From: a virus
Length of the DNA stretch: 64,000 bases
IMG/VR virus record: IMGVR_UViG_3300042731_007944
Span: 1 to 64,000 of that record
Strand: one strand, 5' to 3'
The notes beneath the pieces were generated by a model. The model saw only the letters and a program-made list of their open reading frames with translations. It did no database searches and was not told the DNA's origin. Shown here piece by piece: positions 17,797-52,341 of the stretch. Each line of letters starts with the position of its first letter. The stretch's first letter is position 1. The position numbers and the translations under genes were made by a program.

Positions 17797-19215
17797 TCAA
17801 TAGCTCCTCGTCTGCCAGTCGTCCGGCACGTCCGGCGCGGGCTGGTGATGGCGCTCCAGGTTCTCGAAGCGGGTGTATTCTTTCAAGTAGGACAAATAGG
17901 CCGTTCCAATTTCACCGTTTCGTTGTTTACGGAAAAGAATTTCTGCAAGACCCTTGTCTGGGGTCTCTGGATAATACACCTCATCGCGATAGATACACAT
18001 CACGACATCCGCATCCTGTTCAATCGCGCCTGACTCTCGTAAATCCGACAAAATAGGGCGCTTATCGGTTCGAGTTTCACAGGCCCGGCTTAATTGCGAC
18101 AGGGCCAGTACAGGCACGTTCAACTCTTTCGCCAGGGCCTTGAGCGACCGGGAAATTTCCGTGACTTCCTGCTGCTTATTTTCCTGTCTCCTGCGTGTCG
18201 TCATGAGTTGTAGATAGTCCACAATGACCAACCCAAGTCCGTGTTTCATCTTGAGTTGCTTCGCCTTCGCTCGCATCTCAAGAATATTCAGGGCTGGGGT
18301 GTCGTCAATGTGAATCGCGGCCTTTGCCAGCACTTCAGCAGCATAAGCTAACCGCTCCCAATCTCCCTCTTGTACCTGTCCGGCGATCAGCTTTCGATAG
18401 TTGACTTTCGCCTCAGAACATAGCAGACGCATCCCCACTTGTTCTTTCGACATTTCCAGGCTAAAGATCGCCGTTGGGATCTGGTGTTTCGCTCCGGTAT
18501 ATCGTCCGACACATAAGGCTAACGCCGTTTTTCCCATGCTCGGACGCGCGGCCAGGATAATCAAATCTGAAGGTTGTAACCCAGTGGTCAGATAATCGAT
18601 CTCCGTGTATCCGGTAGGGACGCCCGTCACGACCTGTTTCTTTTCAGCCAACTCCTCCAGCAGTTCGAAACTCTGCTTGACCAACACGCCTGAACTCACA
18701 AAGCCCTGTTTCACATGGCCCTGCGCCACATTAAAAATCATATTTTGTGCATCTTCCAAGATGACAGACGCTGGTTCCTGGTCGTCATGACAGCGACAGG
18801 CGATCTGGATGCTAGCGTTCATTAACCGGCGTGAAATCGCTTTTTCGTGAACAATCCCCGCATGAAAGGTGATGTTTGCCGCTGAAGGAACCTGATCAAC
18901 GAGTTCAGCAAGATAGGCCGGACCGCCGATCTCTTCAAGTTGTTTGCGGCGTTCCAATTCATCACGTAAGACAAGCAGATCGACCGCTCCCTGCTGTTCG
19001 AGACACGTCAACATCGCCTCGAAAATCTTCCGATGGTTCAGGCGGTAAAAGTCTTCTGGATCGAAAAGTTCTAACGCGGCGTACAGGGATGCGTTTTGCA
19101 CCAGCACCGCCCCTAAGACGGCTCGCTCAGCGTCCAAATTGAACGGTGGCGGTATTTCTGCCTTGCGATACATGGTCTGTATCGTCGCATGTTCATAGGT
19201 TTTCGGGTTACTCAT
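17797..19215 (-). CDS. dnaB: Replicative DNA helicase DnaB
   Basis: 472 aa, full length. N-terminal DnaB domain (PPFNLDAERAVLGAVL) and C-terminal RecA-like motor with Walker A (ARPSMGKTAL, about residue 218), Walker B/H3 (IVDYLQLM) and LSQLSRACE. It unwinds DNA at the phage fork. ATGA overlap with the upstream initiator gene pairs loader/initiator and helicase, as in many siphophages. Confidence 0.97.
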   Translation of the reverse strand: MSNPKTYEHATIQTMYRKAEIPPPFNLDAERAVLGAVLVQNASLYAALELFDPEDFYRLNHRKIFEAMLTCLEQQGAVDLLVLRDELERRKQLEEIGGPAYLAELVDQVPSAANITFHAGIVHEKAISRRLMNASIQIACRCHDDQEPASVILEDAQNMIFNVAQGHVKQGFVSSGVLVKQSFELLEELAEKKQVVTGVPTGYTEIDYLTTGLQPSDLIILAARPSMGKTALALCVGRYTGAKHQIPTAIFSLEMSKEQVGMRLLCSEAKVNYRKLIAGQVQEGDWERLAYAAEVLAKAAIHIDDTPALNILEMRAKAKQLKMKHGLGLVIVDYLQLMTTRRRQENKQQEVTEISRSLKALAKELNVPVLALSQLSRACETRTDKRPILSDLRESGAIEQDADVVMCIYRDEVYYPETPDKGLAEILFRKQRNGEIGTAYLSYLKEYTRFENLERHHQPAPDVPDDWQTRSY

Positions 19216-20249
19216 TGTGCCCCTCCAATACCGGCCACATATCCGGTCATGCGGTGTTGTTGCTCAGGTGGTAACTTCGTCTCTTGTACCGCATGCGGAA
19301 CCCGGTTGTACTGGCGTTCTTGTGTGTACCGCTGCGGTGTCTGGGCTTTCACGTAATTCTGATATTTCCACGGCCATCGCCTTCGAGAACCACGGATAGT
19401 GAGATAATGGCTCTTATAGGCTTTTGCTGACATGCCAAACTGGTATTCATCATGCTCTTCCAGGAACTCATCAAGGTCTGTAATCCAAAACTGCAATTCG
19501 CGCTTATCCTGTTTGAAAAGCGTCAACAGCTTCCCTTTTTCATCGTCTGTCAGGTAGACATGCTGATATTCCCCATACGGTTTCTCGTCAGGGTCAGGTT
19601 CGGTTTTGACGCGTCGTCGTGTCTTTTTCCCTTTTCGAGAAGGGGGGGATGAAGCCGTGTCATCCTGCGACGAATGTTCTTTCTTTTTTTCTTCACTCTC
19701 AGTATTATTCTTTAATTCAGATCTACGTATCCTTATATCAGTATTACGTTGTGTCGGATTTTCCACCTTCTGGTTTTTCAGTAATCTGGATGACTCGTCC
19801 GGTTTTAGGGCGTTTTCACGAGATGACCAGATTCCTGACTTCCCGTCCACTGGTGTATCCATATAACCAGATTCCTGACTTCCCGTCCACTGGTTGTGTG
19901 GTGGATATGTTTGTGTCAATGCCTGTAGAAACGCCCCGTAGAGCGGGTGATCTTTTGGCACTTCCACCACGGCTGTTTTCCACTCTTGCACCCGTCCGCC
20001 GTCATCTCTCACGGCAAATTTCCGAAAATAGCCATACTGTTTGAGTTCACGCAAGGCGGCCCTGGTCGCATCGCGCCCTTCTGTGGCATGGGCCATTAAG
20101 TCTTGTTCAGAACATTCCCACCCGTCGCCATGTCCTACGAGATAGGTGAGGATGCCTTTGGCCCTCCAGGACAACCGGGTATCGTCGAGAATCGGATATT
20201 TATGAATCGTAATTGAGTCTGTCAGTACTTTCTGCACGCGATAAATCAT
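19212..20249 (-). CDS. Phage replication initiator with winged-helix domain (Rep 1)
   Basis: 345 aa. Residues 18-95 form a winged helix typical of phage replisome organisers (LDDTRLSWRAKGILTYLV, ALRELKQYGYF). A low-complexity charged linker follows. Two 29-bp direct repeats lie in its coding region (19826-19894). Immediately followed by dnaB. It likely binds those repeats and recruits DnaB, like lambda O with P. It is paralogous in its N-terminus to the gene at 46487-47263. Confidence 0.8.
   Translation of the reverse strand: MIYRVQKVLTDSITIHKYPILDDTRLSWRAKGILTYLVGHGDGWECSEQDLMAHATEGRDATRAALRELKQYGYFRKFAVRDDGGRVQEWKTAVVEVPKDHPLYGAFLQALTQTYPPHNQWTGSQESGYMDTPVDGKSGIWSSRENALKPDESSRLLKNQKVENPTQRNTDIRIRRSELKNNTESEEKKKEHSSQDDTASSPPSRKGKKTRRRVKTEPDPDEKPYGEYQHVYLTDDEKGKLLTLFKQDKRELQFWITDLDEFLEEHDEYQFGMSAKAYKSHYLTIRGSRRRWPWKYQNYVKAQTPQRYTQERQYNRVPHAVQETKLPPEQQHRMTGYVAGIGGAQ
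19826..19894. repeat. Two 29-bp direct repeats inside Rep 1 (candidate origin)
   Basis: Copies at 19826-19854 and 19866-19894 begin ACCAGATTCCTGACTTCCC and are identical. Their 40-bp offset is not a multiple of three, so the protein differs between copies and selection must be on the DNA. Iterons inside an initiator gene next to dnaB point to a replication origin. Confidence 0.65.
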
Positions 20250-31403: not shown

Positions 31404-32042
31404 CTACAGCGTGTACGGATCGCCCACTTCGCAGCAATGGACGCGATCTATGATATTCCAATACGGCGGGGCCGTGCGCACCAGGCGCAGGCCGTTCGGA
31501 TCGGGCAGCCAGCGCATGGCCTTGCCGTCTTTGACGAGACTGTAGTCGTCAGGCGTTTCTTCAAAGTCAATACTCACTACTCGTCCTTTGCCTTTTCCGC
31601 GATATTTGCCGATGGCCCGAAGGTGCTTTGTCAGGAGGCGTTTGACTTCTTTGCGATTCCCGGAGGCGTAGGCCATCATGCGAGGGACACACAACAACGG
31701 CATCGGATGATTGTATTCCCGATATGGCCCGTTGGTGAGATTGAACGATCCTGATGTCAGGGCGAGATGGTCTTGATCGAATTTTTTCCGCCAAAATTGC
31801 AGCGTTTCAAACCCGTCCCCATCTGGAAATAAGGCTGAGGCGTGATAGATGTCGCGCCTGGCAATCGTGGATTGCGTCAGGGGCATCTTGATCACATCGG
31901 GCGTCTCATCACGTTGTAAGTCTTTGGCAAGCCCTTGCAAAGGGGTCAGAATCGCCCCCAAAATATCGTCAAAATGTGGTGGCTCATAGGGATCGTAATA
32001 GATCCCGCAGCCATCTAACCGAAAGATAATTTTGAAATTCAT
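31404..32042 (-). CDS. csf3: Csf3, Cas5-family subunit of type IV CRISPR-Cas
   Basis: 212 aa. Pattern typical of Csf3/Cas5: a PPHFDDILGAIL start, IYHASALFPDG, and the Gly-rich loop HLRAIGKYRGKGKGRV followed by DDYSLVKDGKAMRWLP and APPYW. Cas5 proteins cap the 5' crRNA handle in the effector complex. It is the last gene of the operon and overlaps the CysH-like gene by 4 bp. Its separation from csf1 and csf2 by three non-Cas genes is unusual. Confidence 0.8.
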   Translation of the reverse strand: MNFKIIFRLDGCGIYYDPYEPPHFDDILGAILTPLQGLAKDLQRDETPDVIKMPLTQSTIARRDIYHASALFPDGDGFETLQFWRKKFDQDHLALTSGSFNLTNGPYREYNHPMPLLCVPRMMAYASGNRKEVKRLLTKHLRAIGKYRGKGKGRVVSIDFEETPDDYSLVKDGKAMRWLPDPNGLRLVRTAPPYWNIIDRVHCCEVGDPYTL

Positions 32043-32806
32043 ACAATCACCCCGCGATCTCGTAATCGTTGAAATTGTTTCGGATAGTAAAAACGAATAT
32101 GCTCTAAATCACCATACCTTATGCCAGTTGGGGTCGGTAATGCCCAACATAAGCGGATATCCTCAGGCGTATGAAAACGGTTATAAAAATAACAGGGGTT
32201 AATTTCAATCTCATGCTCTATCAGATATGCAAAGACATCTTCAGCAGTCCATCTGCCTAATGGGCAGCATCGCCACTCACCATTTTTTAATTGGTATAGC
32301 TCGCCACGTTTCGCAAGGTTCAAATACCGAGAACGACTTTCCTGAGATCGTAATCCCAAAAAAACAACAGAGCAGTCCAATTCCTGCTGCTTTTCATGTA
32401 AAACTGCAAGAAATGAATCTTGCGTAAAAACATGAGTTTGGGTACAAATATTTTCAAATCCAAGCTGACATGAATACGAGCGTTCCCATACACTAAAGCC
32501 AGGCTCAACTCTATGAAAATTCCATCCTTGCGCATGCGCTACCCGTTCAGCATACACTCGTTTCTCTGGCCAATCACAATCATCAAATTGAATCATGATC
32601 GGCGTCTCAGGATAGAGTTCCTTGATCAAATGCGTCATGGCAGTGCTATCCTTCCCGGCACTCCAAGAAATGATGCTCTTGCCTTTCTTTTGAGCCGCAT
32701 GGATAATCTTTTTTGCATAATCAAGATGTCTGAGATATTCTTGCGTTTTTGCGCGGAGTCGCCAGCGCAGGAAATTCCCTTGTTGTTTTATAAGGTGTCT
32801 GTCCAT
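32039..32806 (-). CDS. cysH: CysH-like PAPS-reductase-family protein
   Basis: 255 aa. The PP-loop ISWSAGKDSTAMTHLI (about residue 43) binds an adenylated substrate; the C-terminal sulfite-reduction Cys motif of true CysH is not seen. A CysH-like gene of unknown role is a known companion of type IV-B CRISPR-Cas loci, which supports the subtype call. It overlaps csf3 (4 bp) and the upstream IbrA-like gene (19 bp). It could modify nucleotide, RNA or a sulfur group. Confidence 0.85.
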   Translation of the reverse strand: MDRHLIKQQGNFLRWRLRAKTQEYLRHLDYAKKIIHAAQKKGKSIISWSAGKDSTAMTHLIKELYPETPIMIQFDDCDWPEKRVYAERVAHAQGWNFHRVEPGFSVWERSYSCQLGFENICTQTHVFTQDSFLAVLHEKQQELDCSVVFLGLRSQESRSRYLNLAKRGELYQLKNGEWRCCPLGRWTAEDVFAYLIEHEIEINPCYFYNRFHTPEDIRLCWALPTPTGIRYGDLEHIRFYYPKQFQRLRDRGVIV

Positions 32807-33918
32807 TTTTTAATGACATCATCCGTGCGTTTTAGCTTATTTTTATATAAGATCTGCTCGCGTGTATAGTTAAACTCAAAATCTCGGTTCCATGTGATAT
32901 TCCCTTCCCAATCACACAGCAGAATCCGTTTTACCATATATTTACACGCTCCCACATCGTCTGTATCACCGAATCGGCTCCATTGATACCTAAATAATTT
33001 CGAGAGATCAGGATGGATATTCTCAAGCAAAAAATCCTTATATTCTTTCCACGTTGAAAAGCGTTCAGGGAGGGCTTTAATTGAATACATCAAATTTTCA
33101 TTTGCATAAATTGCCGCAGAGTGGACTCCTTGTAAGCGTCGTTCTAATTTATCATAGGTTTCAGGTTCAAGTTCTTGTAGTGTGGCAAGGCACCTGAAGG
33201 CTTTTTCATGCACAAGATTTGATACGCGCATGGTTCTCAAATCAAGACCAAGCATATACATTTTATCATAAATCTTATTGTATTTTAGATTATTTTCTAC
33301 CAGATATTTCCAAACGTCTTTATATGTCCAATCAATGATAGGATATGCTTTATGAGGTTTATTTTTTCGACGTAACCAGAATAATTCTGAGTCTTCGCCA
33401 AACATAACAAAACGGCGATCTGGACTTTCATCAGCACGTAATCCGATAATAGAAACACTCTTTCCGGGTCGTTTTTTTAGCTGTTGCCCAACCCATAAAT
33501 TGAATTTATGAAACCTTCTGGGGTATTTTTTTTCAATATCATGAATTGCGATTGGATGCTTTTCTCTCACCCATTGTTCCCCTTGCCCCCATGCCCATAA
33601 AAATAATTGTTGATGGCTTGCAGCGTTCGTCATAAATATTGGGACTTGATACCACAAAGGGATAACGTTTGGTTGTGTCATAGCCCATTCGACCATATCA
33701 ATTGTTCCCTGATATTCGGCTTCCTGGTCTTGGAAATAAAGAATAAACTGACGAGATCTTTTGATAGCCTCTGCATTAACGAGATGGAATAGGGCAGTAC
33801 TATCTTTTCCCCCAGAAAACGATAACTGAATGTTATCATAATGGTCAAAAAGATATGTAATGCGCTTTTTGACAGCAGACAAGACATCAATTTCTCCATA
33901 TATTGCAGTCCTGCCCAT
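32788..33918 (-). CDS. IbrA-like PAPS-reductase-family protein
   Basis: 376 aa from the ATG at 33918 (AGAGGAGG 6 bp upstream). PP-loop LSFSGGKDSTALFHLV near residue 35, then YFQDQEAEYQ and a long C-terminal region as in DUF3440/IbrA proteins. IbrA and IbrB occur together in enterobacterial prophages. Here the IbrB-like gene is directly upstream with 1 bp between. A second PP-loop enzyme next to CysH suggests a two-step modification chemistry; this is inference. Confidence 0.82.
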   Translation of the reverse strand: MGRTAIYGEIDVLSAVKKRITYLFDHYDNIQLSFSGGKDSTALFHLVNAEAIKRSRQFILYFQDQEAEYQGTIDMVEWAMTQPNVIPLWYQVPIFMTNAASHQQLFLWAWGQGEQWVREKHPIAIHDIEKKYPRRFHKFNLWVGQQLKKRPGKSVSIIGLRADESPDRRFVMFGEDSELFWLRRKNKPHKAYPIIDWTYKDVWKYLVENNLKYNKIYDKMYMLGLDLRTMRVSNLVHEKAFRCLATLQELEPETYDKLERRLQGVHSAAIYANENLMYSIKALPERFSTWKEYKDFLLENIHPDLSKLFRYQWSRFGDTDDVGACKYMVKRILLCDWEGNITWNRDFEFNYTREQILYKNKLKRTDDVIKKWTDTL

Positions 33919-33919
33919 A

Positions 33920-34459
33920 TTACACCTCCTCTTGAATATCTTCTCCGGCTTCGACAATTTGCCTTTCAATTGAATATGGAACGCCTAAGATTTCAGAAGC
34001 AATGCCTTTTAATCCGATCAATCGTTGAATTTCATCAAGCGTCATCCCTAATTCAGTCATAATTTTTTCTTCCGACCAGCCTTCTTTGAGTATTGTAACT
34101 AAAGAGGCTTGCAATTCAACCTCATGTTTGCCACGTGCCCGATTATGACGAATTGTTGACGCCATGCGTTCGCTAATATCCTTATTGATAACAGAGACTG
34201 GAATCATTCCTTGTTCCCTCTCAAAAATATCAACGTACATCAACATAATACTATACCGATGATAGCCATCAACAATAGTGTATTTGTCTCGTGTTTGATC
34301 ATAATAACAGACAATCGGCATGGTAAACCCATCTTGTTTGATGCTTTGGTACAAGAGATCCATTTCTCGCTTTGCTACGTGATTTGGGTTATAATCATTC
34401 GCTTCAATTTTTTCAATAGGAATAGCTTTAATATTATACACTGGACTTTGGAAATTCAT
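33920..34459 (-). CDS. IbrB-like ParB-domain protein
   Basis: 179 aa. ParB/sulfiredoxin-like domain: AIPIEKIEANDYNPN, QDGFTMPIVCY, TIVDGYHRYSI and RARGKHE, then an HTH-like tail (MTELGMTLDEIQRLIG). ParB domains of this type bind nucleotides (CTPase or nuclease). It overlaps csf1 by 26 bp and carries its own GGAGG site. The domain may deliver DNA specificity to the IbrA-like enzyme. Confidence 0.85.
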   Translation of the reverse strand: MNFQSPVYNIKAIPIEKIEANDYNPNHVAKREMDLLYQSIKQDGFTMPIVCYYDQTRDKYTIVDGYHRYSIMLMYVDIFEREQGMIPVSVINKDISERMASTIRHNRARGKHEVELQASLVTILKEGWSEEKIMTELGMTLDEIQRLIGLKGIASEILGVPYSIERQIVEAGEDIQEEV

Positions 34460-40699: not shown

Positions 40700-40867
40700 A
40701 TGACAACGAGAATTTTTTTGTACGATGTCAGAATTTTTGAAACAAATTGCCCGGATACGCTGTTTTTGGGCTTGACAAAAGCCCAGGCCGTGGCGCTGGT
40801 GGCGTTTCTGAAGCAACAAGACATCGCCTACGTGGTGAAGCCGAAGCTCCAACCGGCCTCAGCGTAG
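40700..40867 (+). CDS. Small unknown protein
   Basis: 55 aa with an AAGGA site 9 bp before the ATG. Compact alpha/beta (FLYDVRIFE, TKAQAVALVAFLKQQ). Its last 3 codons overlap the end of the convergent sigma-54 activator gene. Confidence 0.55.
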   Translation: MTTRIFLYDVRIFETNCPDTLFLGLTKAQAVALVAFLKQQDIAYVVKPKLQPASA

Positions 40868-43321
40868 CCCGTATTTCTTCAGCTTTGTATGCAGCGTCTG
40901 GCGGACAATACCCAGCCGTTTCGCCGCTTCCGTCACATTCCCATGACACGCCATAAGCACTCGCTGAATATATTGCTTCTCTGTCTGTTCGAGTTGCTCC
41001 GCCAACGAAAATCGCGCGGTATCCGATAATGCCAGATCCGGCGCAATGGACAGATCGCCGGTGGCAAAAAACGAGTCGAGGACCCGGTAGAGTTCCCGGA
41101 CATTGCCCGGCCAATCATAGTCAAACAGCAGCGTCATGACCTCTGCCGGAAGAAATTCTCGCTCTCGCCATTGCGGATGGTGGCGAATATAGTGCTCAAC
41201 GAGCAGTGGCAAGTCGTCTTTGCGCTTGCGCAAGGCAGGCAAGCGTATTTGTACGCCCTGGAGCCGATACCAGAGATCCTTCCGGAAAGCCCCGTCTGCT
41301 ATGTCTCGCATGAGATCCCGGTTGGTGGCCGCAAGAATTCTGAGATCAACCGAAATCACGCGATCCGATCCGACCGGGCGAAATGACAACGTATCGATTA
41401 CGCGTAACAATTTTTGTTGCGACTCCAGCGACAAGTTTTCAATTTCATCCAGAAAGAGCGTGCCGCCGTTGGCCTGGATCAAGTACCCATCCCGATGAGA
41501 CATTGCGCCCGTAAACGCGCCTTTCCGGTGGCCGAAAAACGCGCTTTCAAACAAGTTCGGTGAGATCGCCCCGCAATCCACCTCAATAAATGCCCTGGCA
41601 CTCCGAGGACTGCGTTGATGAATTTCACGGGCCACCAATTCTTTGCCCGTTCCGGTTTCGCCAACCAAGACGACCGAAATGTCCGAGGCCGCTGTCTGCG
41701 AAATGCGCGAATACACCCGCTGCATTAATGGGTGTTTCCCGATTAATGCGCCGTACCGAAATCGGGTCTGCTGGGCATCTTCAAGTTGCGTTTCCAGCGC
41801 CTGCTGTCGCTGTCGTTCTTCTGTGATGTCACGCCCGAAGGCAAAAAACTCACAGACCTTCCCGCTTTTGAGGATGATCGGCGTAATGGACCACTCGATC
41901 CACTTGTTGTCCTGGTGGACAATAAGCGGTGTCTGCTTGTTGATCGCAAGGATCTGACGAAAGATTTTTTCACTCGGGACAAACGCCCGAAACGAGATCG
42001 GAAGATCCGGCCATCGGTTGCGAATCGACGCATTCACTTCTGACAGCACTCCGTTCGGCAGAAACGCACAGAAAAAATTTTTTTCGTGTTCAAGCATCGC
42101 TATATGTCGTTTTGCGTTCAGTTCGGCGTCTTTGCGCAAGAGCCGCTCTTGCGTCCAGGCGTGCTGCAACCGGGCCGCCATCGCATTAAATGCCCGGCTG
42201 AGACGTCCGATCTCCTCAATTCGGGCCGTGTTGATATCTGCCCGGATGGACAACGATCCCCCGTGGTGCGCTTGATCCATCGTCTGACACAGTGCTTCGA
42301 GAGGCCGGGCCAGGGACCGGCTGATCCGCCAGGAGAGTGCCGCGATGCCAGCCGATCCAAGCACCAGAATGCCGGTCACAACGCCAAACAGACGCCACAG
42401 CACGATCCGTTCTTCATCCCGTGGCTGGATCAGCAGAAACGCCCCACCAGCAAACCCAACCTTGCTGAGATACGCCGCCCGCGTTGTGCGTATGTTCGGG
42501 GCCGTAGGAATCGCTGAAAGATCAACGTCAAGAGGGGCGTCAAGGGAACTCAGTCGTCGTATTCCGTCGATCATTAATGTGACATGGACATCGCCCATTC
42601 GCCGGAACCGGTGCATGTCGAGATCGCTCACGGTCCGCAGTTCCCGCACGATCCCGAACCGCTCATGATTATACGTAATTGGCAGGCAATACTCGAAAAA
42701 GATGCCATCCGGGAAGGAGACGATTTCAAACCGGCCGTCTGTTGGAATCTCATCATCAAAGATGGTCGGCACGCTGGCAGGCGTCGGGATCGCGCGGATG
42801 TCTGTTTCTTGCTCGACGTATACATACCAGCGATCCTCCGGATGCATCTGTGTAAAGACTCCACCCTCGATAAAGGGTAAATAGACGCCGCCCGACAGGA
42901 TATCCGGATCGTCAGGATCGCGCTGAGCCATTCCGACCAGTACGCCCTCTCGATCATACACGGCGGCGTTTTGCGCCCCGACGAGGCGAAAATAATTCAC
43001 CAATTCCAGCGCAAAGAAATAATAATACGACTTCGTCCGATCAAAGCGCTCCATCGGGAGGAGGTCTTCGCTTTGCAACCACAGATCAAGCATATAGAGC
43101 CGATTCCGAATCGCTGGCTCAGCCTGCTTCATCTGATTGAGATAGATGATTTGCATGAGCCGCAAATCATCGTGAATGATGGCCGCCGCGCGTTCCACAT
43201 GCTGTTGAAAATCATGCCGTACCTGCCAGAGGAAAACGGCATAATAGCCGGCCGCAACGATCAGGCATCCGACGAGCGTAAATTGAAAAAAGGAAAGAAA
43301 AAACCGTTTGCGTAAGGTCAT
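40859..43321 (-). CDS. Membrane sensor fused to sigma-54 activator
   Basis: 820 aa from the ATG at 43321 (a longer frame to 43399 exists). Two membrane helices flank a 275-residue periplasmic sensor. HAMP, a PAS-like domain (CEFFAFGRDITEERQ), an AAA+ domain with VGETGTGKE and the sigma-54 loop GAFTGA, and a Fis-type HTH (NVTEAAKRLGIVRQTLHTKL) follow. It joins in one chain what a histidine kinase and NtrC do in two. Its ligand is unknown. On a phage-like element it may tie replication or lysis to an outside signal. Confidence 0.9.
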   Translation of the reverse strand: MTLRKRFFLSFFQFTLVGCLIVAAGYYAVFLWQVRHDFQQHVERAAAIIHDDLRLMQIIYLNQMKQAEPAIRNRLYMLDLWLQSEDLLPMERFDRTKSYYYFFALELVNYFRLVGAQNAAVYDREGVLVGMAQRDPDDPDILSGGVYLPFIEGGVFTQMHPEDRWYVYVEQETDIRAIPTPASVPTIFDDEIPTDGRFEIVSFPDGIFFEYCLPITYNHERFGIVRELRTVSDLDMHRFRRMGDVHVTLMIDGIRRLSSLDAPLDVDLSAIPTAPNIRTTRAAYLSKVGFAGGAFLLIQPRDEERIVLWRLFGVVTGILVLGSAGIAALSWRISRSLARPLEALCQTMDQAHHGGSLSIRADINTARIEEIGRLSRAFNAMAARLQHAWTQERLLRKDAELNAKRHIAMLEHEKNFFCAFLPNGVLSEVNASIRNRWPDLPISFRAFVPSEKIFRQILAINKQTPLIVHQDNKWIEWSITPIILKSGKVCEFFAFGRDITEERQRQQALETQLEDAQQTRFRYGALIGKHPLMQRVYSRISQTAASDISVVLVGETGTGKELVAREIHQRSPRSARAFIEVDCGAISPNLFESAFFGHRKGAFTGAMSHRDGYLIQANGGTLFLDEIENLSLESQQKLLRVIDTLSFRPVGSDRVISVDLRILAATNRDLMRDIADGAFRKDLWYRLQGVQIRLPALRKRKDDLPLLVEHYIRHHPQWREREFLPAEVMTLLFDYDWPGNVRELYRVLDSFFATGDLSIAPDLALSDTARFSLAEQLEQTEKQYIQRVLMACHGNVTEAAKRLGIVRQTLHTKLKKYGLR

Positions 43322-43494
43322 TAGAGAAACGGGGCGTCGAGCGAGTGCAAACAGGCAACCCGGCTGACTCGACACGAGTCCCGTGGCTTTCCGTCCCATC
43401 CTCGCGGATGGTTTGGCATTTTTCTGTGTTCAGTAGGTACTCTATACGATAGTGCGTGGGGAGAAAAATGTCAAATCGGTCTAGCAAAAAAAAT

Positions 43495-46486: not shown

Positions 46487-47263
46487 CTATTGTTCCACTA
46501 CTTGAAAGGTTATGTCAGGACGCTGCCCGATCTGTTTTTCGAGTTCATCCTGAATGATTGTCGTATAATAGTCTTGCAACCAGTAAACAAAGTCTTCAGA
46601 AGGAACCCCTATCACAACACCTCTTCCGTTCTGCTCCAGCAGGCGTGTAGGCCGCAACCATGTGTCAAACGATGGACGGTTGATCGTTTTTTGAAGAGAA
46701 ATTAAAATGGTGTCCCATAAATTATACTTCTTACAACCTTGCTTCTTATTCTTGTTAGTATTCAGATTTTCTGAATGTAGATTTTCTGAACGGCTACCCC
46801 CTTCTTTCAGATTTTCTGAACGTAGGTCAATCGCCTGTTTTTCTAGTACGTTCAGATTTTCTGAATGTAGCTTTAGATATCCACCTCGATAGAATTTCCG
46901 TTTGTCCGTCCCTTGGTGCTTTTTTCCAAGAGGAATAGACGTAGGGTCTTCGGGAGATGGATTGTGCTCTGGTGTCGCATACACATAATAACACCACTCG
47001 CTAATTTGATCTGAAACCCTTTTCGGTTGATATGTCGCATATCCGAAATGTCGTAATTCTTTTAAGGCGCTATAGACGACTGTTTTTCCATCCACAGATC
47101 TCGAGACAAGATCCGTGACGTTCATTTCCCATCCGGCGGCTTGCGCTAGAACATATGACAAGATTCCTTTTGCGGCCCAGGAGAGTCTTGAGTCATGATC
47201 AAGGGCGGTTTTGTCAAAGAGCGCAAAATTCTTTTCGTAATGAGCATTTTTGATTGTCGGCAT
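46487..47263 (-). CDS. Replication initiator with winged-helix and DnaA-N-like domain (Rep 2)
   Basis: 258 aa from the ATG at 47263. Residues 12-85 are a winged helix (HDSRLSWAAKGILSYVL, SALKELRHFGYATY) akin to Rep 1. A linker repeats SENL four times because iterons lie in the DNA. Residues 180-255 resemble the DnaA N-terminal domain (SFDTWLRPTRLLE, VVIGVPSEDFVYWLQDYY), which contacts helicase. It probably starts plasmid-mode replication next to parMR. Confidence 0.78.
   Translation of the reverse strand: MPTIKNAHYEKNFALFDKTALDHDSRLSWAAKGILSYVLAQAAGWEMNVTDLVSRSVDGKTVVYSALKELRHFGYATYQPKRVSDQISEWCYYVYATPEHNPSPEDPTSIPLGKKHQGTDKRKFYRGGYLKLHSENLNVLEKQAIDLRSENLKEGGSRSENLHSENLNTNKNKKQGCKKYNLWDTILISLQKTINRPSFDTWLRPTRLLEQNGRGVVIGVPSEDFVYWLQDYYTTIIQDELEKQIGQRPDITFQVVEQ
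46761..46865. repeat. Iterons inside Rep 2 (candidate origin)
   Basis: TTCAGATTTTCTGAA occurs at 46761-46775, 46806-46820 and 46851-46865, exactly 45 bp apart; a fourth imperfect copy is at 46776-46790. Each is a TTCAGA/TCTGAA palindrome. Iterons within an initiator gene recall the lambda O gene origin. Confidence 0.75.
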
Positions 47264-47401
47264 CTTTTCTGCTTGACAAAACGAGGGGGAGGCAGGATGA
47301 TACTCACATACACAAGGGGTAAGCCTACCCTGGGGGCTTCTGTTTATCGACGTAATGGCGGGCAAACCATAGCAGATATTCAGAGGCCCTCTCTCTTTTG
47401 T

Positions 47402-48620: not shown

Positions 48621-48718
48621 GACAAAGGGTTTCCGTCTATGGTTTGGTGTTTCAGAATGATGCGTGTTTGATGCTATTCAATATCTTTTTAGCAACTATA
48701 GTTTTACAAGGAGATGTT

Positions 48719-49816
48719 ATGGAAGTTATTCTTGCATGTGATACAGGGACATCAGAAGATAAAGGGGCCATCATGCCCCTCGGATCAGACTTTCATCCGA
48801 AACGGATTATCTCACATTCCTTCCCTACGTTGGGAAAAATTGGGGAATTTACCGCGCTACCAGGGGATCACTTAGGCGTCTTGCGAGAGCCACATCCCTA
48901 TCAAGGCGTCTACAAGGCCCGCGCCCGTGAATTTGGAGCGCGTCTGCATCGAAATTCAAACATCTATAATGATCCCGTCTATCTGCTCTATGTCTTTGGC
49001 ATGGTGGCTGATCTGCTGGAAAAAGCCCATATTACAGAGAAGCAAATAGACGTGATGTTTGCGGGCTTTGGGTTCCCGGTCTCACATAAAGAAGGACAGG
49101 CCGGGCAACTCAGATCCACGTTGCTGCATCGCGGAAAACCGTGGACAGTACAAAAACAAGACGGACGGGCCTATTCTGTCACGTTCCACAATGTTGTGTG
49201 TGAGACGCAACCGTATTATATGGTCGTTGACCAGATTTTCACCTGGCAGCCGAACGGGACGCTGTCGGCTGAGCGTGGCAAACAGATTTTTGCCAACGGG
49301 CCGCTATTATTCGGGGATCTTGGGTCAAACTCGAATGATTGGGAATGGGTTCCGTTGTCGCTCGCAAACTCCGAGAACGCCTGTTCGATGGGCGGGACGT
49401 TCAATTTTTTTCCGAAACTGGCAAAGTTGGCCTATGAAAAAACCCATCAGGATTTAACAGAGTACGATCTCATGTATCAGGTGTTTCGGAAACGCCAAAT
49501 CACCTTAAACGGTGTGACGTATGACTTTTCTCAGGAAATCCCGTTGCTCTATCAAGAGGCCGTCAAAGAGTTGGAGGGCGATATTGATCTGTTTTTGCGA
49601 ACCCTGAAAGAAAAGCCTCAGCCTTATGCGATGCGATTAGGCGGGGGTGGTGTCATTAATGGGGAATCGTATTTTCGACAGATCTTTTCCTCAAAATTCC
49701 CTGGCGGAGTGCAGATTGTTGAAGATGACCACGGGAAACCGGCCCCGGTCTGGTCTATCGTGCGTGGAATGGTGAAGAAAAGCGTCATTGAGGCGCAAAA
49801 GGCAGAGGTACTATAG
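48719..49816 (+). CDS. parM: ParM/Alp-type actin-like segregation ATPase
   Basis: 365 aa from the ATG at 48719 (AAGGAG site). Actin-fold phosphate loops ACDTGTSEDKG (N-terminus) and LLFGDLGSNSNDW (about residue 200), and a MRLGGGGVING segment near the C-terminus. It forms filaments that push plasmid copies apart. parR follows 1 bp after its stop. Confidence 0.8.
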   Translation: MEVILACDTGTSEDKGAIMPLGSDFHPKRIISHSFPTLGKIGEFTALPGDHLGVLREPHPYQGVYKARAREFGARLHRNSNIYNDPVYLLYVFGMVADLLEKAHITEKQIDVMFAGFGFPVSHKEGQAGQLRSTLLHRGKPWTVQKQDGRAYSVTFHNVVCETQPYYMVVDQIFTWQPNGTLSAERGKQIFANGPLLFGDLGSNSNDWEWVPLSLANSENACSMGGTFNFFPKLAKLAYEKTHQDLTEYDLMYQVFRKRQITLNGVTYDFSQEIPLLYQEAVKELEGDIDLFLRTLKEKPQPYAMRLGGGGVINGESYFRQIFSSKFPGGVQIVEDDHGKPAPVWSIVRGMVKKSVIEAQKAEVL

Positions 49817-49817
49817 A

Positions 49818-50132
49818 ATGTCGAAAAAACCACTCACTGAAACAGGTCGGATACAGTTTGATCTCCAACCGCACCGACCTGATGATTATGCTCGGCTGAA
49901 ATATTTAGAACACCTCCGGCAAAAAGGGAAATTTGCCGATGGGATGCGGGAACTCATTGATTATAAGATGACACGTTCAACGACTGAGCAGCGGTTTGAC
50001 GAGATTAAACGAATGCTTGAGATGGTGTATGAACGAATTTCGTCAGGAACCATAACGTTTACGCCACAGGAACGACAGCAACTCAAAAAGACGGTTGTCG
50101 ATCTTGAGGATACGGTCACATTTGGAGTATGA
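49818..50132 (+). CDS. parR: ParR-like adaptor
   Basis: 104 aa. N-terminal strand-helix (RIQFDLQPHRPDDYARLKYL) of RHH type and a helical C-terminus; size and place directly after parM fit ParR, which binds the centromere and ParM. No direct family match could be made by eye. Confidence 0.65.
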   Translation: MSKKPLTETGRIQFDLQPHRPDDYARLKYLEHLRQKGKFADGMRELIDYKMTRSTTEQRFDEIKRMLEMVYERISSGTITFTPQERQQLKKTVVDLEDTVTFGV

Positions 50133-50734: not shown

Positions 50735-50900
50735 GTGAACTGCTCCCGGACATCAATGCCCGGGCATCTATGCCGCTGACGCGGCAAGCGTCGCCAGCCC
50801 GCGACGCAATAAAACGAGAGAGGACACGTAGTCTCGATTTTCGACCAGCCCGCATTTCGGGCATTCATGCACTCGTTGCGACAGTGTTTTCCGTACTGGC
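50735..50900 (-). ncRNA. Predicted omega (reRNA) guide RNA of TnpB
   Basis: In this family the guide RNA overlaps the 3' end of tnpB and the right end. GATGCCCGGGCAT (50752-50768 region) and the terminal GTTCAC fit. The guide would be read from flanking DNA below 50735, beginning AAACTCATCCAG. The 5' limit is a guess. Confidence 0.5.
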
Positions 50901-51934
50901 TCCCCACAGACGCATACTTGTGAACTGCCTCTCGGGTTGGTCGGGATTCGACGTTTCCCTTGCTCTTTGACTTTATAGGCAACGATATTCAGAAATAGGC
51001 CCCAGGCCGCGTCTGAAATAGAGAGGTGCAAGCCTGACGTATGACACGCACCGTTCGGCAGATACGTCCCAGTATCATCCTGTTTTGCCTTTGGACGCCT
51101 GAGCATATTTCGGATATTCAGGTTTTCGTGAATGAGATAATCCGTTTGTTTTAAGAGCGCGTTTGCTGTCTTGTGTAAAAAATCCAACCGCTGACACTTG
51201 ACGCGATAATGGGTTTTTTGGATGGCCTTCAAAAGTTTGTACCATTGCGGAGAGCGTTTCGGAGCCTTTGCAAATCGCCGTTGAAGACGTTTCAGGCGTT
51301 GCTGTGATTTTCGGAAGGCTTTGGGATAGACGCAATGAAACCCGTTTGAGGCATAGACATAATCATTCAACCCTAAGTCAATCGCTAGAGGTGGCAAGGC
51401 GTCTTTAGGCTCTACTGATACTTCTAATTCAGTAGAGAAAGACGCAAACCACTTGCCTCCATCTTGTAAAATCGTCAGAGTTTTGATTGTGGCCTCTTCC
51501 GGGATCGGGCGATGATACACACACTTCATGTTGCCAACTTTTGGTACATAGAATGAGTCAGAGGGACGTTGCGTATATTGCGGATAAGTAATTGACGACC
51601 ACCTGCCACGTTTTTTAAACTTCGGGAACCCAGGCACGTCGCCCTGTTTAACTCGGCGGAAGAAGGCGTCAAAGGCGTTATCCAGACGGCGTAAGACATC
51701 TTGAAGCACCTGAGAATGGACACCCTTAAACCACGGACGGGCTTTTTTAAGGAGAGGAAGTTGGCGTTTTTGTTCATACCAGGACACAGACCGGCCTTCC
51801 TGCTCATAGACGTCCATACGTTCTTTGAGTGACCAGTTGTACACATAGCGGCACATCGAAAATTGATTCTTCAGGTTTGTCTGTTGCGCTTTTGTCGGAT
51901 AAATCCTATATTTATACGCCTTACGAAGGATCAT
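50768..51934 (-). CDS. tnpB: TnpB RNA-guided nuclease
   Basis: 388 aa from the ATG at 51934 (MILRKAYKYRIYPTKAQ). RuvC residues: D in AIDLGLNDYVY, E in LIHENLNIRNML and D in ENRDYVSS; zinc ribbon CVC-x-CPKC. All catalytic positions are kept, so it is probably active. It cleaves the empty target site to keep the IS in place. It overlaps tnpA by 4 bp. Confidence 0.93.
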   Translation of the reverse strand: MILRKAYKYRIYPTKAQQTNLKNQFSMCRYVYNWSLKERMDVYEQEGRSVSWYEQKRQLPLLKKARPWFKGVHSQVLQDVLRRLDNAFDAFFRRVKQGDVPGFPKFKKRGRWSSITYPQYTQRPSDSFYVPKVGNMKCVYHRPIPEEATIKTLTILQDGGKWFASFSTELEVSVEPKDALPPLAIDLGLNDYVYASNGFHCVYPKAFRKSQQRLKRLQRRFAKAPKRSPQWYKLLKAIQKTHYRVKCQRLDFLHKTANALLKQTDYLIHENLNIRNMLRRPKAKQDDTGTYLPNGACHTSGLHLSISDAAWGLFLNIVAYKVKEQGKRRIPTNPRGSSQVCVCGEPVRKTLSQRVHECPKCGLVENRDYVSSLVLLRRGLATLAASAA

Positions 51935-52341
51935 TTGGTTTTTTGATCGGCAATATACCGCGTGACCGTCTCTTCTGAAACGTGTCCGATAGTTTCCACA
52001 TACGTTGAGGGGTTCCACAGATGCCCATTCCAGAGACGTTTCTGTAACTCTGGAAATTCAAGCAAGAGGCGTCTCGCAGAAATGCCCTTCATTAATTTAT
52101 ACATATGCGAGGCAGAGTATTTTGGATGCCCAGACACAAACACATGTACATGATCCGGCATGACCTCCAGTGATTGGATGACAAATCCTTTTTCTTTTGC
52201 GATCTCATGTAACAGTGTCTTGAGTCTGGTATCAATGCCGTTGACCAATACCTTGCGACGATACTTGACCGTCCAAACAATGTGATAGTTCGCATTATAC
52301 ACGACCGTTCTGGCATAGGTAAACCGTTCCTTGTCTCGCAT
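51931..52341 (-). CDS. tnpA: TnpA Y1 (HUH) transposase
   Basis: 136 aa. HUH motif in MPDHVHVFVSG and catalytic Tyr in VTRYIADQK; NYHIVWTVKYRRKVL start is typical. Single-strand transposition. Complete. Confidence 0.95.
   Translation of the reverse strand: MRDKERFTYARTVVYNANYHIVWTVKYRRKVLVNGIDTRLKTLLHEIAKEKGFVIQSLEVMPDHVHVFVSGHPKYSASHMYKLMKGISARRLLLEFPELQKRLWNGHLWNPSTYVETIGHVSEETVTRYIADQKTK

Follow-up and report, generated by a model that had tools for sequence, protein, structure and literature searches.

In ori-lambda the iterons lie within the gene of the initiator O itself, with AT-rich DNA alongside. In phage 80alpha, ORF20 is not complemented in trans and ORF20 and ORF21 together replicate autonomously (PMC5499656); this genetic evidence points to an origin within ORF20. 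The SPP1 protein gp38 binds the oriL repeats inside gene 38, which adjoin an AT-rich unwinding element (PMC6316719). For plasmid pSK41, Rep binds four boxes located centrally in rep, the ori encoding the linker of the protein (PMC5703833), and the iterons of RepA_N initiators form inverted repeats that converge on a poly-A tract (PMC7145576). The pPR9 hybrid joins a pfam13730 (HTH_36) N-domain, together with the ori belonging to it, to the C-domain of pSK41 (PMC5703833), thus the module is exchangeable. In-gene origins are known singly; in several hundred genes analyzed here the sites follow one grammar, i.e. a 15-bp grid, dyads centred on an A-tract and AT-rich DNA following on.

The locus of interest lies in a stretch of 64,000 nucleotides (positions 1 to 64,000) of the IMG/VR virus record IMGVR_UViG_3300042731_007944, referred to below as the window. 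It comprises a gene for a protein with an N-terminal winged-helix (wH) domain, a linker and a C-terminal end resembling domain I of DnaA (Table 1). On the precedents of 80alpha ORF20, SPP1 gene 38 and pSK41 rep we assign an origin role to the sites within the gene, and we consider it highly likely that it encodes a theta-type replication initiator with its own replication origin inside the coding sequence. Being parts of a single gene, site and protein would travel and change together, and the layout offers a means of annotating phage and plasmid origins on the basis of the gene alone.

Table 1. Coordinates of the initiator gene, its domains and its putative origin elements in the window.
Feature	Position	Strand	Basis or remark
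Initiator gene (wH, iteron-bearing linker, DnaA_N C-terminus)	46487..47263	minus	258 aa from ATG
wH DNA-binding domain, residues 1-98	46970..47263	minus	PHROG initiators, homologues, AF2 pLDDT
Recognition helix, residues 60-72	47048..47086	minus	covariation and AF2 model
K60 and T61 in the recognition helix	47081-47086	minus	covary with half-site bases h4 and h3
Wing residue I87	47003..47005	minus	covaries with half-site base h4
Iteron 1 (first in reading direction), exact dyad TTCAGA-AAA-TCTGAA	46851..46865	minus	sequence match
Iteron 2, exact dyad, 45 bp from iteron 1	46806..46820	minus	sequence match
Iteron 3, imperfect (TTCAGAAAATCTACA), 30 bp from iteron 2	46776..46790	minus	2 mismatches
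Iteron 4, exact dyad, 15 bp from iteron 3	46761..46775	minus	sequence match
AT-rich stretch, candidate DNA unwinding element	46694..46760	minus	right after iteron 4
DnaA_N (DnaA domain I) C-terminal domain	46547..46723	minus	Pfam PF11638 E=8.7e-11; 4tps E=2.7e-9

The open reading frame (46487-47365, minus strand) has two possible starts, ATG at 47263 or TTG at 47365; the former is the likelier because homologues begin near it. The N-terminal ~98 residues match PHROG families 4707, 186, 37920 and 428, annotated as replication initiation, DnaD-like helicase loader or HTH protein. Together with homologous initiators of Staphylococcus phages, one of which (phiJB) has its origin annotated as a rep_origin within the gene, these matches bear out the earlier note's naming of the gene as an initiator. 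Pfam gave no match in the window protein for HTH_36 or RepA_N (PF06970) at E up to 0.1, nor for Phage_rep_O, the N-terminal domain of lambda O. A single-sequence AF2 model was poor (pLDDT 46.7) and an alignment-based model was therefore used; its pLDDT is above 90 for residues 21-100, in the wH domain. Foldseek searches returned nothing significant from the PDB (best E 0.04 for primosomal DnaB, followed by RctB domain 1), and phage HTH proteins and one RepA-like initiator from viral models. No close relative of the protein was detected in IMG/VR or GTDB by a single-protein scan, and no phage near-match of 24 kb was found.

The DNA encoding the linker carries a 15-bp dyad in three exact copies (TTCAGATTTTCTGAA) and one copy with two mismatches (TGTAGATTTTCTGAA); the repeat unit extends beyond the dyad, to about CTACRTTCAGAAAATCTGAA. 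These four are the only copies with at most two mismatches in the whole virus record of 104,987 bp. At up to three mismatches the window holds 13 matches against 3.35±2.08 in shuffled sequences, and 0/100 shuffles reach 13. The three palindromes at 45-bp steps plus an imperfect copy, as first reported, are thus confirmed by sequence match. The earlier note also held that this spacing keeps both DNA phase and codons. The codon part stands: all four copies encode SENL in frame with the identical codons TCA GAA AAT CTG (P ~4e-6 under the phage's own codon usage). The DNA phase part does not, as 45 bp correspond to 4.29 turns at 10.5 bp per turn, and helical phasing of the dyads was rejected on this arithmetic. 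With the imperfect copy included the steps are 45, 30 and 15 bp, and the gene positions 399, 444, 474 and 489 define a 15-bp grid. Synonymous resampling of the initiator gene yielded three exact dyads in none of 20,000 trials; for dyads of the 6+3+6 form, 4 are observed for 0.18 expected, the maximum being 3 in 3000 resamplings. The AT content of the candidate unwinding element is moderate, reaching 0.72 in 60-nt windows.

Homologues of the wH domain were found by tblastn in phages of Staphylococcus, Bacillus, Vibrio and actinobacteria, in plasmids of Firmicutes, Legionella, Piscirickettsia and Leptospira, and in a Virgibacillus element; pattern scans of IMG/VR and GTDB brought the collection to ~400 loci. 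Pfam HTH_36 matched 52 of 88 homologues. Many have repeated DNA directly after the wH part, with a core of the form [h4][h3]GA-AAA-NC[h3'][h4'] (e.g. GACGGAAAATCCGTC, TGTGGAAAATCCACA and AGTAGAAAACCTACA). The strict form GGAAAANCC is present in 45 of 93 non-redundant homologues and a looser dyad form in 288 of 398 genes. In the 93 genes the density of GGAAAANCC is 4.12/kb in the 270-nt linker, but no more than 0.07/kb within the wH part and 0.04/kb downstream. The rest of the loci has 0.025/kb, so that GGAAAANCC is ~165-fold commoner in the linker than there. Synonymous shuffling with each protein kept leaves 28.7±4.1 copies where 106 are observed. The copies fall in the three codon phases as 86/18/2, with phases mixed within 7 genes. 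Both the excess over protein demand and the use of all three phases indicate that selection acts on the DNA. Thus the search for the same layout in homologues, proposed in the earlier note, shows it to be family-wide, and the refuting outcome named there (protein repeats kept, DNA not) is the opposite of what is found: it is the DNA core that is kept, whereas the codon phase and the encoded peptide vary.

Spacing and composition also follow a common pattern. Among ~80 intervals between successive family sites, 41 are exactly 15 bp and 61 are multiples of 15. In the stretch 20-60 bp past the last iteron the mean AT is raised to 0.77-0.79; the window gene obeys both the grid and the AT rise, the latter in milder form. 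Some homologues carry other dyads: the gene of Bacillus phage EZ-2018a (2980-4173 of that locus) holds a long in-gene array of CGTGA-TAA-TCACG in 36-bp units. Its recognition helix differs from the others, which makes it a natural test of a site-helix code.

To relate sites to protein residues, sites were collected from the DNA with no use of the protein sequence (GAAAANC as anchor, a dyad at h3; 288/398 genes). For base h3, position helix+3, which is residue two of the recognition helix, ranks first among 94 wH columns with 90% and 70% identity clusters, and fourth with 60% clusters. For base h4, helix+2 (residue one) and wing column 83 lead among the 94 columns. With Asp at helix+3, base h3 is G in 57/59 cases against 21/35 (Fisher p 9e-6), a rule that runs in one direction as G is present also with many non-Asp proteins; Arg at helix+2 is associated with C at h4 (p 9e-9). 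In 60% identity clusters (n=44) the p values are 0.008 for Asp-G and 0.006 for Arg-C. Traits were also simulated on a maximum-likelihood tree built without the covarying columns: the observed association was reached in 0/2000 and 0/2000 simulations for the two helix residues and in 4/2000 for the wing. The strict independent-pairs test points the same way (2.6 vs 0.1 and 2.5 vs 0.1 pairs) but, with 4-5 supported pairs and a median p of 0.25, falls short of significance.

In the AF2 model the covarying positions correspond to K60 and T61, at the start of helix 60-72, and to I87 at the wing. The window helix, DGKT, has no Asp and pairs with A at h3, as do two phages with helix DGKS (L020 and L059). 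Their sites, AACAGAAAATCTGAA and TTCAGAAAACCTGCA, are nearly that of the window, and AACAGAAAATCTGAA is the nearest site match to the window dyad. Of the computational evidence, the covariation of half-sites with two helix residues and a wing residue argues most strongly for binding of the wH to sites within its own gene, and on this ground such binding is very probable. The covariation also makes initiator-origin specificity predictable from sequence. The open-access literature searched yielded no report of the 15-bp grid or of a helix-site code.

The dyads might alternatively constitute an in-gene operator by which the wH protein represses or roadblocks its own transcription, replication starting elsewhere, e.g. 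in the module at 17797-20249. Binding within the gene would indeed give autoregulation too, and the same record holds a second wH initiator gene that overlaps a DnaB helicase gene and could be the main replicon. This seems unlikely to be the whole function of the sites because the in-gene sites of the 80alpha, SPP1 and pSK41 systems have been assigned to the origin, AT-rich DNA follows the sites throughout the family, and operators mostly overlap promoters. The operator and origin roles are moreover compatible with each other.

The sharing of one frame by the four copies, each encoding SENL, would also fit repeats that exist at the protein level only, as a functional or neutral tandem peptide, with DNA repeats that are secondary or due to recent duplication. 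But synonymous shuffles and resampling fail to give the DNA repeats, homologues read the same DNA core in three phases (producing EN, GK and other peptides), and the half-sites covary with the recognition helix, which makes this explanation scarcely credible. Hairpins in the mRNA, for translation control or RNA processing, are hardly more probable. The region does fold better than shuffled sequences (z -4.06), but better folding is expected of any repeated palindromes. Many family iterons are imperfect dyads, e.g. GGAAAACCC, no Rfam match was found, and hairpins leave the covariation with a DNA-recognition helix unexplained.

For the preferred reading, an origin within the initiator gene, sequence statistics show constraint at the DNA level, the family layout, the dependence of site bases on helix and wing residues by covariation, and what the C-terminal domain is. 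From these we infer that the protein binds the sites, melts DNA, recruits the helicase and acts at an origin, in the following form. The N-terminal wH would bind the four dyads on the 15-bp grid of the linker-coding DNA, K60 and T61 of the recognition helix reading those half-site bases that vary, and the wing reading the groove next to them. The initiator array on the iterons would then melt the AT-rich DNA directly downstream (46694-46760), and the C-terminal DnaA domain I may act as a dock for the machinery that loads the helicase, by contacting either the replicative helicase itself or partners of the host DnaA.

The "DnaA-N-like end" of the earlier note is borne out: besides Pfam DnaA_N (E=8.7e-11), the C-terminal ~75 residues match domain I of B. 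subtilis DnaA (4tps, E=2.7e-9) and that of E. coli (2e0g, E=0.0085). The match is confined to domain I. Pfam detected neither the AAA+ domain III nor the DNA-binding domain IV of DnaA, and the TIGR00362 match covers positions 1-74 of 437 only. The Trp aligned with E. coli Trp6, a domain I dimerisation residue (PMC5448010), is kept. The DnaB-contacting Glu21 and Phe46 of E. coli align with Ser and Asp in the window protein (alignment read by eye). DnaA domain I binds the DnaB helicase in E. coli and no such contact is known in B. subtilis (PMC5448010). As Glu21 and Phe46 are not kept and the B. subtilis domain has no known helicase contact, the recruiting step is uncertain.

Pfam analysis of the 88 homologues gave DnaB_2 in 20, Phg_2220_C in 6, DUF6017 in 5 and DnaA_N in none. 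In 596 bacterial genomes, no ORF combining wH and DnaA_N was found among the matches listed, each of which covers one part. The pairing exists elsewhere: L180 is a different wH + DnaA_N protein, in whose gene no direct repeats of at least 11 bp were found, and phrog_26369 matches the C-terminal part of the window protein. H81/L175 and L179, at first taken for phage homologues with DnaA_N, are DnaA itself. The replacement of the usual DnaD-type modules by DnaA domain I thus appears to be what sets the window initiator apart from the family. We suggest tentatively, giving it somewhat less than an even chance, that a mobile initiator module (wH and in-gene sites with a simple base-to-residue code, located where the recognition helix begins) was joined to DnaA domain I, so that the phage recruits the replication machinery through the docking domain of the host initiator while bypassing the DnaA origin and its AAA+ control. 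This raises the question of whether DnaA domain I alone is able to recruit the replication machinery.

Other genes of the virus record were noted. The second wH initiator gene (19212-20249, minus strand; 34% identical in the wH) overlaps the DnaB helicase gene at 17797-19215 (minus). It contains an exact direct repeat of 29 bp, ACCAGTGGACGGGAAGTCAGGAATCTGGT, at 19866-19894 and 19826-19854; the distance of 40 bp between the copies is not divisible by 3. One site of the family type, GGTGGAAAATCCGAC, lies near 19764, and the helix of this second protein, EGRDAT (Arg, Asp), is compatible with a site of the CGGA type. The presence of two initiators in one phage record suggests separate replication modes, as in phage-plasmids. 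Beside the window initiator, 48713-50132 (plus) holds two genes, by eye an actin-like ATPase (DTG, GDLGS, LGGGG) and a small partner, possibly a plasmid-type partition pair; they have no sequence match in Pfam, PHROG or PDB. A ParM/ParR identity could not be shown, and no close relatives of the ATPase were found. An 846-aa protein (40859-43399, minus) has, by eye, membrane/HAMP-like parts and a sigma-54 activator (NtrC-type) AAA+ domain, which is odd for a tailed-phage record. Two adjacent genes with SGGKDST motifs (32039-33969, minus; by eye PAPS-reductase/DndC-like) lie beside a ParB-like gene (33920-34459). An IS200/IS605-type element (50768-52341, minus) encodes TnpA (51931-52341) and TnpB (50768-52018); among plasmids, a DNA match was found solely to a Desulfosarcina TnpB (65%), which hints weakly at the host.

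The likening of the locus to the lambda O arrangement holds as an analogy: the partner protein differs and the window protein lacks the Pfam lambda O domain. With DnaA, the window protein shares domain I, placed at the N-terminus in DnaA and at the C-terminus here; it has neither the AAA+ part nor domain IV, and its DNA binding would be through an unrelated wH. The systems of SPP1 gene 38, pSK41 rep and 80alpha ORF20 are closer, as relatives or as analogues. SPP1 gp38/oriL is alike in layout, with direct repeats in the initiator's own gene and an AT-rich element (PMC6316719), but gp38 works with the phage loader gp39 and helicase gp40. RepA of pSK41 has likewise a wHTH N-domain, Rep boxes within rep and an ori-encoded linker, and in RepA_N initiators inverted repeats converge on an A-tract and the C-domain is exchangeable (PMC5703833, PMC7145576); the pSK41 C-domain, however, binds DnaG primase, whereas the window protein has DnaA domain I and no RepA_N match.

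In the 80alpha ORF20/phiJB ORF20 type the wH is homologous, phiJB and other Staphylococcus phages being direct tblastn matches, and the repeats lie in the gene directly after the wH, as in the window. Proteins of this type combine an HTH_36 wH with a Phg_2220_C or DnaB_2/DnaD-like end and are followed by a gene for a DnaC/DnaI-type loader, whereas the window locus has DnaA domain I and no adjoining loader of that type. Compared with HTH_36-type initiators with in-gene origins, the window protein shares the wH, the dyads on a 15-bp grid and the match of helix to site; in place of a DnaD-like, Phg_2220_C or DUF6017 C-terminal module it has DnaA_N. Because the C-terminal module varies within the HTH_36-type family, we take this end as the mark of a variant and not as grounds for exclusion.
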